From NCBI GenBank assembly GCA_000987045.1, contig LAKY01000008.1:72312-136311 (forward strand): a DNA stretch of 64,000 nucleotides, in the 5' to 3' direction. The DNA is from Clostridiales bacterium PH28_bin88. GTDB lineage: Bacteria; Bacillota; PH28-bin88. Shown here piece after piece: positions 19,782 through 41,848 of the stretch. Both the position numbers and the translations under genes were made by a program. The notes beneath the pieces are model-generated. The model worked only from the letters and a program-made list of their open reading frames with translations, ran no database searches and was not told where the DNA came from. The number at the start of each line of letters is the position of its first letter. The stretch's first letter is position 1.

Positions 19782-20438
19782 TCACAACGCCACTTCTCTT
19801 ACATCTGGAGCAACCACTAACGTAGCCTCGGTCTTCTTCACCACTTCCTCCACTGTCACCCCCCGCATCAACTCTTTCAGCAGCAGCCCATCCCGGGTAA
19901 CCTCGATAACCGCCAGGTCGGTGACGATGAGGTCCACCTCCTGCCTGGCCGTGAGCGGCAGGCGGCAGCGTTTGAGGATCTTGGGGCTGCCGTCTTTGGC
20001 GACATGCTCCATGGCCACGATCACCCGCCTGGCCCCCACCACCAGGTCCATGGCGCCCCCCATCCCGGGCACCATCTTCCCGGGGATCATCCAGTTGGCC
20101 AGGTTTCCTTCGGCATCCACTTCCAGCGCCCCCAGCACGGTGGCGTCCACGTGGCCGCCCCGGATGATGGCAAAGGAGGTGGCGCTGTCAAAACAGCTGC
20201 CCCCGGGCAGGATGGTTACCGGCATCCCCCCGGCGTTCACCACGTCTTTGTCTACCTGGTCTTCCGCCGGGGCCGGTCCCAGACCCAGGAATCCGTTTTC
20301 CGACTGCAGCATGATCTGGACGCCTTCGGGCAGGTGATTGGCCACCTGGGTGGGCAGGCCAATCCCCAGGTTGACCACGTCTCCGTTTTTGAACTCCCGG
20401 GCTACCCGGCGCACAATGTCATCGCGGCTTCCCGCCAT
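19782..20438 (-). CDS. acetoacetate/3-oxoacid CoA-transferase, subunit B
   Basis: 218 aa. The catalytic glutamate is in the SENGFLGLGPAP motif (Glu at about residue 47), preceded by NLGIGLPTQVANHL, as in the beta subunit (AtoA/ScoB) of family I CoA-transferases. With subunit A it moves CoA from an acyl-CoA to acetoacetate. In this island the natural role is activation of the acetoacetate released by the BKACE enzyme, for cleavage by the thiolase. It overlaps subunit A by 37 nt and is the last gene of the catabolic operon. The exact CoA donor cannot be read from the sequence. Confidence 0.9.
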   Translation of the reverse strand: MAGSRDDIVRRVAREFKNGDVVNLGIGLPTQVANHLPEGVQIMLQSENGFLGLGPAPAEDQVDKDVVNAGGMPVTILPGGSCFDSATSFAIIRGGHVDATVLGALEVDAEGNLANWMIPGKMVPGMGGAMDLVVGARRVIVAMEHVAKDGSPKILKRCRLPLTARQEVDLIVTDLAVIEVTRDGLLLKELMRGVTVEEVVKKTEATLVVAPDVREVAL

Positions 20439-21094
20439 GCTTCGTCACCCCCCAGCACCATATGATGGACGAATACGCCGGGAGTCATGAACTCGTCCGG
20501 GTCCAGCTCCCCGGTTTCCACCACCTGCTCCACCTCGGCGATCACCAGGTCTGCCGCCATGGCCATCAGGGGATTGAAGTTCCTGCTGGACCTGCGGTAC
20601 ACCAGGTTTCCCATTTTATCGGCCTTGTAGGCCTTAAGCAGGGCCACGTCCGCCCTCAGGGGCAGTTCCAGGAGGTACTCCCGCCCACCGATGGTTATTA
20701 CCTGTTTCCCTTCCGCCACCACCGTACCCACGCCGGTGGGGGTGAGAAAGCCGCCCAGCCCCGCCCCGCCGCAGCGGATGCGCTCGGCCAGGGTACCCTG
20801 GGGGATGAGGGTAACCTCCGTCTCCCCGCCGGTCATCTGCCGCCCTGTCTCGGGGTTGGTGCCGATGTGGGAGGCCAGCAGCTTCTTGATGCGCTTGTTC
20901 ACGATCAGTTTACCGATGCCCTTCCCCGGGAAACCGGTGTCGTTGCAGATAACGGTAAGCTCCTTGGCACCTGTGGCTACCAGGGCGTCCATCAGGGTCT
21001 CCGGGGTACCGGCGGTCATGAACCCGCCGATCATCAACGTCATGCCGTCCCTGACGCTGGCCACCGCCTGCTGAATTGTAATCACCTTGTCCAA
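20402..21094 (-). CDS. acetoacetate/3-oxoacid CoA-transferase, subunit A
   Basis: 230 aa from a TTG start with GGAGGGAGC upstream. It shows the alpha-subunit signature: DGMTLMIGGFMTAGTP near residue 16, then GGAGLGGFLTPTGVGT near residue 110 (CoA-binding region of AtoD/ScoA). It forms the heteromeric transferase with the next gene. The normal length and clear family motifs make the class secure. The acetoacetate substrate is inferred from the neighbouring thiolase and BKACE genes. Confidence 0.9.
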   Translation of the reverse strand: MDKVITIQQAVASVRDGMTLMIGGFMTAGTPETLMDALVATGAKELTVICNDTGFPGKGIGKLIVNKRIKKLLASHIGTNPETGRQMTGGETEVTLIPQGTLAERIRCGGAGLGGFLTPTGVGTVVAEGKQVITIGGREYLLELPLRADVALLKAYKADKMGNLVYRRSSRNFNPLMAMAADLVIAEVEQVVETGELDPDEFMTPGVFVHHMVLGGDEAWREAAMTLCAG

Positions 21095-21235
21095 AAAAAG
21101 CTCCCTCCAACTGACGCCTATTCTTCAACAATGGCCACCAATCGCACCATGCCGCCATCTCGCAACGGAACGGGAAGGCAGCAACGGTGCATATTTTACC
21201 TCCTGGTGTAAATTCCAGTTTAAAAGTTGCTAACT

Positions 21236-39742: not shown

Positions 39743-39767
39743 AGGGCTGGTGCATAACACCAGCCCT
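39743..39767. promoter_or_regulatory. palindrome, candidate activator (enhancer) site
   Basis: Perfect 10-bp arms AGGGCTGGTG / CACCAGCCCT with a 5-nt centre, about 150 bp upstream of the -24 element, the usual distance for a sigma-54 activator site. It also lies 140 bp past the activator gene's stop, so a terminator is possible, but no T-run follows. Confidence 0.6.
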
Positions 39768-39907
39768 GCAAAAAGCTAAGGTCATATGAACTGAGTAAAA
39801 TGCCGGGAACAGTCTCGATGTTTCTTTAAGGACAAATAAGGAATACCCCCAAATTACAAATATGCCCGGGCCTTGGTCGAACAGGCATAACTGGTTTAGT
39901 TACAGGA

Positions 39908-41848
39908 TCAGTTTACGGCTCCCTCTGCTTTTTTTAGTTTCTTCCATAGCGTAGTCCGGCTAACACCAAGGATTCTAGCAAGCTCTGACTTGCCATCAGG
40001 GAAAAGGCTTTTAGCCTTGAGCAGGATCTGCCTCTCCATATCATCAAAACTGGCAAGTTTCACATTAATTTCGCACTGGCTACCCGTTGTTTTTGGCTGA
40101 ATGTTTTCGGACGTACCTGCCAGTAGAGAACGCAGGGTCGCCGCCGACCGGGGGTCAACCTCCCCAAGGGCTAAATACCTTTCAACAAAGTTCTGCAATT
40201 CGCGAACGTTGCCAGGCCAATCATAAGCTTTCAATTCCTTCAACACCTCAGGCGGGAGGTCTGGCGCCACAGTGCGTAGAATTTCCGATGACTTGTTAAT
40301 GAAAAAAGTAAACAACCCCGGTACATCCTCCAACCTCTCCCTCAGTGGCGGAACTTTCAAGTTCAACACATTAAGACGGTAAAATAGATCCTGGCGGAAC
40401 TTACCTTCGTCCACGGCCTCACGCAAGTCGCGGTTAGTGGCGGCGATCACGCGTACATCGATCGGTATCAGCCTGTCGCCCCCGATGTGCATAATCTCCC
40501 GTTCCTGCAAAACGCGCAGTAAACGTGCCTGCAGGTGGATACTTATTTCTCCAACCTCATCGAGGAAAATTGTGCCGCCGTGGGCCAGTTCAAATAACCC
40601 CAGCTTGCCGCCCTTTTTCGCCCCGGTAAAAGCACCCTCCTCGTAGCCGAAAAGCTCACTTTCTAGCAGGGTCTCGGGTAGAGTGGCGCAGTTGACGGCA
40701 ACGAAGGGACCTTCACGGCGCCTACTCTCATTATGAATACTGTGGGCAAAAAGTTCTTTTCCTGTGCCGCTCTCACCTGTAATGAGCACCGCGCCCTCTG
40801 ACCGCGCATACTTCCGCGCTTCGTCAACAGCACGCCGGATGGCCGCCGACTTACCAACAATGTCTGTAAAATTAAACTTTGCCACTAACCCCTTGTTATT
40901 GAGTTCCTTCCGGATCCCTTCCTCGATCTTGCGAATACGGTCAGCCGCCTGAAACGTGACCACAGTACCTGTTTCTAACCCTGCTACATGCATGCGATTG
41001 CGGTTTACCACCAGCAGGACACCGTTAGCGTTGACCAGTTCACTGGTAGTCTCCACGCCCTCTCCGTAAATCCGTCTAATTGCCTCCTCCGGAGAAAATT
41101 CTGTGACATTCCGGTCTATCACAGCAGCAGCCTTTACATGAAGTGATTTTTCCGCCGCTGGATTGCATAAGCTAATGGTACCGTTTTCATCAAATACCAG
41201 GATGCCGTCGCGTACGTTATTCAAGACCGTGGTCAATTTCAGCCTTTCCTTGTGGTCATTACGGCGCACCTGTACCATATTGCATGCCTGCTTGAGAGCT
41301 TCTTTTAGACTCTCCTTATTGCAGCGCACCAGTACAGTCTGAAACCCCATTTCCGATGCCATCTCAACAATGGGTACCGCGCTACCGACAACTGTCTCAA
41401 CTCCCAGTTGTAACGCTTCCTGAAGCTTCTGCTTTATTTCAATATCGTTGCGATATAGGAGTACTGTAAAATCCCTACCTAAAACCCTTTTAATCATCTC
41501 AAAATCGAGCTTAGGCTGACGGTAGGCGTTGTCGACAACCGCGATAGAACCTGAACTCATCTGACAAGCATTGTAGATGGCTTCTACCATATCAATGTTC
41601 GTAATGTTCACCATGACAACCGGCATCTTCAGGTTTTGCCGCATGAGCATGTTGGCGGCCATTCCTCGTGCCAGCACTACTTCAATCAGTCCTTCTCTTT
41701 CCCACCTGCGGGCAAACTCGACAACCTCCCCTAGCAGCGCTTCCTGTATGTGGACGGGGACTCCGATCTCCTCTGCAGCTTCCATGGCAAGTTGAGTATA
41801 TTCATGGTAGGGTGAGAAGATGCCAATTTCTGTTTTCCTCTGATTCAA
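39908..41848 (-). CDS. PrpR-type sigma-54-dependent transcriptional activator
   Basis: 646 aa from a TTG with GGAGGGAGG upstream. Residues ~10-190 match the PrpR/propionate-catabolism activator sensor domain (VVEFARRWEREGLIEVVLAR, KMPVVMVNIT). A PAS domain follows (~205-310), then the AAA+ domain with Walker A GESGTGKE (358-365) and the sigma-54 contact loop GAFTGA (405-410). A Fis-type helix-turn-helix ends the protein (ELARILGVSRTTLWKKLKKA). It is the obvious regulator of the downstream operon, which has a -24/-12 promoter. The inducer is unknown, probably a trihydroxybenzene or a pathway intermediate. Confidence 0.93.
   Translation of the reverse strand: MNQRKTEIGIFSPYHEYTQLAMEAAEEIGVPVHIQEALLGEVVEFARRWEREGLIEVVLARGMAANMLMRQNLKMPVVMVNITNIDMVEAIYNACQMSSGSIAVVDNAYRQPKLDFEMIKRVLGRDFTVLLYRNDIEIKQKLQEALQLGVETVVGSAVPIVEMASEMGFQTVLVRCNKESLKEALKQACNMVQVRRNDHKERLKLTTVLNNVRDGILVFDENGTISLCNPAAEKSLHVKAAAVIDRNVTEFSPEEAIRRIYGEGVETTSELVNANGVLLVVNRNRMHVAGLETGTVVTFQAADRIRKIEEGIRKELNNKGLVAKFNFTDIVGKSAAIRRAVDEARKYARSEGAVLITGESGTGKELFAHSIHNESRRREGPFVAVNCATLPETLLESELFGYEEGAFTGAKKGGKLGLFELAHGGTIFLDEVGEISIHLQARLLRVLQEREIMHIGGDRLIPIDVRVIAATNRDLREAVDEGKFRQDLFYRLNVLNLKVPPLRERLEDVPGLFTFFINKSSEILRTVAPDLPPEVLKELKAYDWPGNVRELQNFVERYLALGEVDPRSAATLRSLLAGTSENIQPKTTGSQCEINVKLASFDDMERQILLKAKSLFPDGKSELARILGVSRTTLWKKLKKAEGAVN

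Follow-up and report, generated by a model that had tools for sequence, protein, structure and literature searches.

The phloroglucinol pathway of Clostridium scatologenes, as outlined in PMC10470551, uses PGR, the cyclase-family hydrolase DPGC (Trp20, Tyr22), TfD and TAL, in which Trp16 stands where the lysine enzyme (KCE) has Glu14. The transhydroxylase of Pelobacter acidigallici, AthLS, is grouped with RhL as one serine-ligand family in the account given in PMC10100899. For catechol dehydroxylases, PMC7028382 gives acetylene hydratase as the nearest characterised relative, and it also describes a catechol-dehydroxylase homologue in the 3,5-dihydroxybenzoate operon of Thauera aromatica, together with the poor growth on 3,5-dihydroxybenzoate of strains without it. 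Here we compare these systems with an 18-gene run in a 64,000-nucleotide stretch of Clostridiales bacterium PH28_bin88 (contig LAKY01000008.1, positions 72,312 to 136,311; hereafter the window), which an earlier sequence-only reading had taken for a complete pyrogallol-to-acetyl-CoA operon. That claim rested on family names and is only partly supported. We lean towards the view that the run encodes a parallel anaerobic route from a polyhydroxybenzene to acetyl-CoA, carried by enzymes of sister lineages and with a substrate that is likely not phloroglucinol. This view is suggested by the lineages of AthL, the cyclases, the TfD-like dehydrogenase and the beta-keto acid cleavage enzyme (BKACE), by the residues of the cyclases, and by the apparent double system of a Moorella genome.

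Enzyme lineages of the run

The large subunit AthL (27838-30354; all genes of the run lie on the minus strand) carries the AhtL-like first domain PF21423 together with the MopB domains PF00384 and PF01568, and is accompanied by the iron-sulfur small subunit AthS (26993-27850). Matches to the Pelobacter enzyme of 901 bits (4v4c_A) and 216 bits (4v4c_B) bear out the earlier assignment of AthLS to the transhydroxylase family. The window enzyme shares with its Pelobacter counterpart the two-subunit build, PF21423, the serine molybdenum ligand and most of the residues that we take to line the transhydroxylase active site: His144, Tyr152, Asp174, Ser175, Trp176, Tyr404 and Tyr560 are kept, and Arg153, Trp354 and Cys557 are changed to Lys, Phe and Ala. 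Besides these three changes, it differs in its clade and in its neighbours, which are not the canonical phloroglucinol enzymes. In a 105-row tree, built by a quick method from open reading frames (ORFs) of 650 aa or more, the window AthL belongs to a clade of 82 rows (clade U; SH-aLRT 99), with L002 and the second copy of Moorella as its nearest rows. The Pelobacter transhydroxylase lies in a separate 11-row clade (SH-aLRT 97) with the AthLs of L081, L117 and L120, which are loci with Trp-Pro-Tyr cyclases (see below). Clade U is over-represented here because the loci, 80 of 242 confirmed, were chosen by closeness to the window AthL. The same tree contains a third deep AthL-like group of 12 rows in which several transhydroxylase active-site residues are missing (for example L121 9623-12274 and L008 13415-16021); all of its loci also have a clade-U AthL.

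The two PF04199 cyclases of the run were assigned by family and alignment as CycA (22043-22849), of Tyr-Pro-Gly type with HxxxHxN, and CycB (21236-22018), of Trp-Pro-Ser type with HxxxHxD. We equated Trp20 and Tyr22 of DPGC with a Trp-Pro-Tyr motif and recognised canonical clusters by such residues. The motif is in neither window cyclase, CycB retaining the Trp only, and is found in cyclases of Acetoanaerobium (L113), Rhizorhabdus wittichii RW1 (L115), Mycobacterium riyadhense (L112), a Dehalococcoidia metagenome-assembled genome (MAG; L081) and the loci L117, L120 and L118 (genomes G033, G307 and G368). In a 51-row cyclase tree, with L094-L111 and duplicate short loci omitted, the 13 rows of CycA and the 17 of CycB each group together with support of 100/100, and no Trp-Pro-Tyr row falls in either clade. 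The third position of HxxxHx(D/N), which we take to be metal binding, is Asn in 16 of 16 CycA entries and Asp in 14 of 14 CycB entries, where some genomes are entered repeatedly (distinct genomes, window included, number 13 and 11), and it is Asp in 40 of the 41 other cyclase entries; only the Trp-Pro-Tyr cyclase of L115 departs from this. CycA and CycB may be the parts of a heteromer or two hydrolases.

A similar division runs through the dehydrogenase and BKACE, whose trees of 19 and 18 rows were made by the quick method with short duplicate loci omitted. The TfD-like 3-hydroxy-acid dehydrogenase (34683-35666; 3HCDH-like, PF02737/PF00725) falls in a U-type clade of 12 rows, and the canonical rows are in another, of 7 rows (SH-aLRT 100 for both). 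BKACE (33802-34662; PF05853) falls in a 6-row clade from U-type loci, separate from the canonical rows; L057, L059 and L065 have a different BKACE lineage, which stands beside the Trp-type rows. At the position of KCE Glu14 and TAL Trp16, the alignment gives Ile for the window BKACE. The TAL-type Trp is present in L113 and L120, which combine it with a Trp-Pro-Tyr cyclase, and five of the six BKACE places in this genome were read, none with Trp. The short-chain reductase (SDR; 33014-33784, PF13561), predicted to serve the ring-reducing step, has gluconate 5-dehydrogenase (1vl8) as its best solved relative, as does the canonical SDR of L113; the PGR structure 5g4k is outside the best 60 for the window SDR and 14th for that of L113. 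The NADPH motif TR(S/N) of PGR reads SRK in the window SDR and does not discriminate, since the canonical-type L113 SDR reads GRT.

With regard to kinship with unrelated enzymes, the result for BKACE is divided: the Glu of the lysine enzyme is absent, and yet the highest-scoring NCBIfam model is the lysine one, at 288 bits against a cut-off of 382; the 3,5-dioxohexanoate model comes behind it with 216 bits, where the cut-off is 430. Given the change of Glu to Ile and a clade of its own, a lysine-fermentation BKACE is thought unlikely. A fatty-acid reading of the dehydrogenase is likewise thought unlikely from its context and from its place beside TfD-like rows, in a tree without fatty-acid enzymes.

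Compared with the C. scatologenes cluster as described in PMC10470551, the run draws on identical enzyme families for a matching sequence of steps, and homologues of CtfAB and thiolase are reported there as well. Its transporter is of the TRAP type, where that account names a 'major family transporter'. A PrpR-type activator and a cupin are also found in L113, L117 and L120, which we take for clusters of the C. scatologenes type. The window differs in having its cyclases, dehydrogenase and BKACE in other clades, in having two cyclases instead of one, and in the additional AthLS, Mop1, Mop2 and ferredoxin. The comparison with phloroglucinol-pathway signatures that the sequence-only reading had called for came out in part only: the catalytic His, Ser and Asn of TfD, an enzyme that lacks Lys56 and Asn221 of the CoA-ester enzymes, are kept in the window dehydrogenase, as judged by motif in an alignment, but the Trp and Tyr of DPGC and the Trp of TAL are absent, the last also from some Trp-Pro-Tyr clusters.

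Distribution of the enzyme set and an apparent double system in Moorella

Among the 79 clade-U loci, an SDR is found in 28, Mop in 12, the TfD-like dehydrogenase and thiolase in 11 each, CycA in 10, and CycB and BKACE in eight each; these counts depend on bit-score thresholds of our choosing, and many of the loci end at contig ends. CycA adjoins CycB in all eight loci having both. No Trp-Pro-Tyr cyclase was seen among the 79, and five have Trp-Pro-Trp or Trp-Pro-Phe cyclases. Close homologues of CycB (at least 88%) occur in 3 of 398 genomes of the phylum (G000, G307 and G010), with a clade-U AthL near each. The arrangement is not unique, since some of its components are met again in Bacillota, sulfate reducers, Chloroflexota and Actinomycetota and on a Rhizobium plasmid. 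Two of the homologue searches were read from 120 listed matches each, out of 885 and 7879.

Moorella sulfitireducens, which we take genome G307 to be, appears to carry both a canonical-type and a window-type cluster, on different contigs. The canonical-type cluster (L120) comprises an activator, CtfA, thiolase, CtfB, cupin, SDR, TfD, a Trp-Pro-Tyr cyclase and a Trp-type BKACE. The window proteins are 69% (SDR), 71% (BKACE), 60% (TfD), 74% (AthL), 93% (CycA) and 97% (CycB) identical to the U-type set of this genome, versus 46%, 42%, 36%, 58%, 45% and 45% to its canonical set. The keeping of two systems in one genome would favour different substrates, although they could be isozymes. Two further features of these loci were observed. 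In L120 (1-19001) a transhydroxylase-clade AthL follows 6 kb on, and a pyrogallol-to-acetyl-CoA region in one piece is more nearly realised here than in the window; in the window-type cluster (L003) an acyl-CoA dehydrogenase gene (13317-14504) lies between AthS and thiolase, where the window has none.

These comparisons bear directly on the route first proposed for the locus, in which AthLS is a pyrogallol-phloroglucinol transhydroxylase, the remaining enzymes take phloroglucinol to three acetyl-CoA, and the separate clades reflect mere divergence. As that proposal held, enzyme classes for reduction, hydrolytic ring opening, dehydrogenation, beta-keto-acid cleavage, CoA transfer and thiolysis are all present in one run; the seven active-site residues kept in AthL and the Ile of BKACE, which some Trp-Pro-Tyr-cyclase clusters share, are also consistent with it. 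In addition, a single AthL-family match was found in this genome, and three of its four cyclase matches were read, none with Trp-Pro-Tyr, so that phloroglucinol degradation, if any, would probably be carried out by these very genes. Nonetheless, none of AthL, the TfD-like dehydrogenase, the cyclases and BKACE belongs to a canonical lineage, three AthL positions and the cyclase signature residues differ, and Moorella appears to keep a canonical cluster besides. The specific course from pyrogallol through phloroglucinol to acetyl-CoA is not borne out by an AthL outside the Pelobacter clade, the lack of a Trp-Pro-Tyr cyclase in the run and a separate canonical set in Moorella, and we now consider it unlikely, if still deserving of attention.

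On the Rhizobium plasmid (L114 11108-24777), CycA, CycB, SDR and TfD-like genes stand with genes for a fumarylacetoacetase, a cupin, a TRAP transporter and a major facilitator superfamily (MFS) transporter, and no AthLS is found in the annotated stretch. Here an aerobic organism may possess its own form of the ring-opening core. The fumarylacetoacetase (TIGR01266, 473 bits, cut-off 375) takes the place of BKACE, and enzymes of this type cleave 3,5-dioxo acids, so the replacement fits a 3,5-dioxo acid intermediate. One could also read the set as serving a non-aromatic or modified substrate, such as a cyclic polyol or an alicyclic dione, with AthLS and Mop acting in some other step: the core occurs on this plasmid stretch without AthLS, and the closest solved relative of the SDR is a gluconate 5-dehydrogenase, albeit for the canonical L113 enzyme too. 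We find this highly improbable, as AthL retains most of its phenol-binding active-site set, CycA and CycB accompany clade-U AthL in 10 and 8 of the 79 loci, and the best model for one transporter of the Rhizobium cluster is an aromatic-acid symporter, although below cut-off.

Molybdoenzymes and ferredoxin

Mop1 (30740-33010; PF00384/PF01568/PF04879) and Mop2 (24712-26955) are acetylene-hydratase-like MopB enzymes, 78% identical to each other; in a sequence search among solved structures, performed with Mop2, the best match was acetylene hydratase (2e7z, 308 bits), followed by 2vpw (254 bits). For acetylene hydratase we assumed the Asp13/Cys141 numbering (chain offset 3) and the positions of the four cluster cysteines. 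On this basis the Cys141 metal ligand is kept in the window Mop, His stands at the position of Asp13 and the first cluster cysteine is missing, the second being not conserved among the 120 relatives listed. Acetylene hydration by Mop1 or Mop2 is unlikely in view of the His at the Asp13 position. An apparent 385-bp hole between Mop1 and AthL is occupied by the gene of a 109-aa dicluster [4Fe-4S] ferredoxin (30409-30738; Fer4_11 and Fer4_2 just over cut-off), which the sequence-only reading, correct in the gene families it listed, had overlooked. Homologues next to Mop in Moorella sulfitireducens (L003) and in a soil Bacillota MAG (L065) match the protein at 72% and 74% identity. Of the 12 Mop-containing clade-U loci, 11 (all except L035) have a homologue adjoining Mop, and the ferredoxin is the probable electron partner of Mop1.

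Like the catechol dehydroxylases of Eggerthella and Gordonibacter, then, the window enzymes are close to acetylene hydratase by the Mop2 match and the kept Cys ligand, and Mop1 stands beside a ferredoxin. This ferredoxin, which fits redox work, and the kinship of catechol dehydroxylases to acetylene hydratase lead us to prefer reductive dehydroxylation as the role of Mop1 and Mop2, which are candidate catechol-dehydroxylase-like enzymes. Thauera aromatica, a proteobacterium, opens the ring oxidatively, unlike the predicted reductive enzymes of the window. The likeness of the two lies in a catechol-dehydroxylase homologue within an anaerobic hydroxybenzoate operon, as PMC7028382 describes it.

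The Thauera operon also inspires a different explanation, namely a resorcinol, resorcylate or hydroxyhydroquinone route in which AthLS is a true hydroxylase, similar to RhL or the 3,5-dihydroxybenzoate hydroxylase, that yields a 1,2,4- or 1,2,3,5-hydroxylated ring, and Mop acts on a catechol intermediate, much as its homologue might in Thauera. The grouping of RhL with the transhydroxylase (PMC10100899) and the need of Thauera for its dehydroxylase homologue for good growth (PMC7028382) agree with such a route as far as these sources describe them, as does a betaproteobacterial contig (L072) on which two Mop genes, a ferredoxin homologue, AthL and AthS follow consecutively. The lower part of the window run is reductive (SDR, cyclases and BKACE), which speaks against it, and we view the explanation as very doubtful. 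It is also conceivable, if quite unlikely, that hydroxyl transfer is split in the window, with AthLS adding one hydroxyl and Mop with its ferredoxin removing another, and that a two-part cyclohydrolase made of CycA (HxxxHxN) and CycB (HxxxHxD) opens a trihydroxybenzene ring.

Gene order, sigma-54 control and genomic setting

The gene set named in the sequence-only reading was confirmed on one strand, as a 22-kilobase minus-strand run of 18 genes from the sigma-54 activator (39908-41848) to CoA-transferase subunit B (CtfB; 19782-20438, TIGR02428 over cut-off), 17 of them with the expected Pfam domains. The gaps, described as short, mostly range from overlap to about 54 bp, but several are larger: dctQ has about 215 bp on both flanks, CycA and CtfA are each preceded by about 140 bp, and dctM is separated from the activator by 473 bp. 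A transporter of its own was correctly attributed to the run, with the TRAP large permease DctM (38133-39434; PF06808, and TIGR00786 over cut-off), the solute-binding protein DctP (36942-38087; PF03480, and NF037995 over cut-off) and the small permease DctQ (36198-36725; PF04290). The thiolase (22993-24186; TIGR01930) and the AtoD-type CoA-transferase subunit A (CtfA; 20402-21094; NF007394) are likewise over cut-off. A small cupin (35647-35982; PF07883) has counterparts in Trp-Pro-Tyr-cyclase clusters, beside the cyclase, SDR and TfD-like genes in L113, L115, L117 and L120. The only gene without a Pfam family over cut-off is a hydrophobic ORF of 149 aa (24223-24672), which, as a guess, could be a transporter remnant; a remnant of the MFS type was rejected for lack of support.

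Sigma-54 control, also part of the earlier claim, is supported by the presence of an enhancer-binding activator, a -24/-12-like site and a single genomic match to the sigma-54 factor family (rpoN). The activator combines a PrpR_N sensor with PAS, AAA+ and Fis-type helix-turn-helix domains (PF00158, PF06506, PF25601 and PF02954), and the site, TGGCATGCATCTTGCA (39589-39604, minus strand), lies some 155 bp ahead of dctM. Scanned loosely for TGGCACN5TTGCW with at most 2 mismatches, the window has 34 matches where 35.5 are expected, hence no excess; TGGCATGCATCTTGCA, one base off TGGCAC, is one of two single-mismatch sites among them. The stricter pattern TGGCAYN5TTGCW has a single match in the window against 0.16 expected, the pattern having been composed after the site was seen.

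The run is flanked by gltX (42162-43616) on one side and by a T-box and cysE (18363-19382) on the other. The genes gltX and cysE are same-strand neighbours, less than 1.5 kb apart, in 10 of 23 gltX loci read from other genomes; the distance is about 23 kb in the window and about 11.5 kb in G033, a genome of the same family, which suggests that the site may be an insertion hot spot. The G+C fraction is 0.47-0.57 over 20-42 kb, which holds the run, versus 0.52-0.63 over the flank at 42-60 kb, and identity to Moorella is uneven from gene to gene, from 97% for CycB and 93% for CycA to 74% for AthL and 60% for TfD. From the lower G+C and this differing likeness, we infer that the run is an inserted, mosaic island. 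The genome has matches over cut-off to dsrA and acetyl-CoA synthase, and the host is accordingly judged to be probably a sulfate- or sulfite-reducing anaerobe with a Wood-Ljungdahl pathway. At the far end of the window (63492-64000), the contig ends inside an rRNA operon (large-subunit and 5S rRNA, minus strand).

Discussion

For the parallel route that we favour, a mechanism can be proposed in which each step is taken from the enzyme family concerned. Uptake of a phenol, or of its precursor, would fall to the TRAP system, and the operon would be turned on by sigma-54 together with the PrpR-type activator. Mop1, with the 109-aa ferredoxin, and Mop2 would act as reductive dehydroxylases, and AthLS would add or move a hydroxyl to give a ring with meta-positioned hydroxyls, the keto form of which the SDR would reduce to a cyclic 1,3-dione. 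Ring opening by retro-Claisen hydrolysis would then be the task of CycB, which CycA may join as a partner or as another hydrolase, and would give a 3-hydroxy-5-oxo acid, which the TfD-like dehydrogenase would oxidise to a 3,5-dioxo acid. BKACE with acetyl-CoA would cleave the latter to a 3-oxoacyl-CoA and acetoacetate, and CtfAB and thiolase would complete the conversion to acetyl-CoA.

Several observations weigh against a second kit with a substrate of its own. Most of the transhydroxylase positions examined are kept, so the window AthL could still make phloroglucinol. Forcing the window trio into the Pelobacter clade, in a 34-row subset of the 105, cost 23.8 log-likelihood units with an approximately unbiased (AU) test p of 0.033, which speaks for separate clades, but this value is moderate, the group was named after the first tree and the Pelobacter row is long-branched. 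The seven Trp-Pro-Tyr rows of the cyclase tree do not form a single clade, and CycA, 39-47% identical to them, might act on the same substrate. The BKACE residue is weak evidence, as Ile also occurs in the Trp-Pro-Tyr-cyclase loci L081, L112 and L115, and CtfA, 62% and 63% identical to the two Moorella sets, does not discriminate. The window-type cluster of Moorella adjoins a second AthL of the transhydroxylase clade, and the two systems may thus be linked. On the Rhizobium plasmid, TfD falls with the canonical rows although the cyclases are of CycA/CycB type. Finally, the sulfate-reducer loci L044 (Desulfamplus) and L053 (Desulfobacula) have SDR, CycA and CycB with no TfD or BKACE within reach. 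L044 instead has an acyl-CoA ligase (ADP-forming by its domains), an enoyl-CoA hydratase, an OB-fold protein and another thiolase, and L053 resembles it in the size and order of its ORFs. With different genes in this part the lower route may differ, and from such gene contents the pathway after ring opening seems to vary among relatives.

No description of the second kit was found in the open-licence literature searched, which is not proof that none exists. AthL homologues in genomes from anoxic sediments, for example of Chloroflexi, have been taken as a sign of pyrogallol degradation, as in PMC3971608. Such annotations may need revision, because clade U is separate from the characterised enzyme and often comes with companion enzymes of its own. 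If the parallel route exists, it would give acetogens, sulfate reducers and Chloroflexota an as yet unassigned oxygen-free means to mineralise plant or algal phenols.

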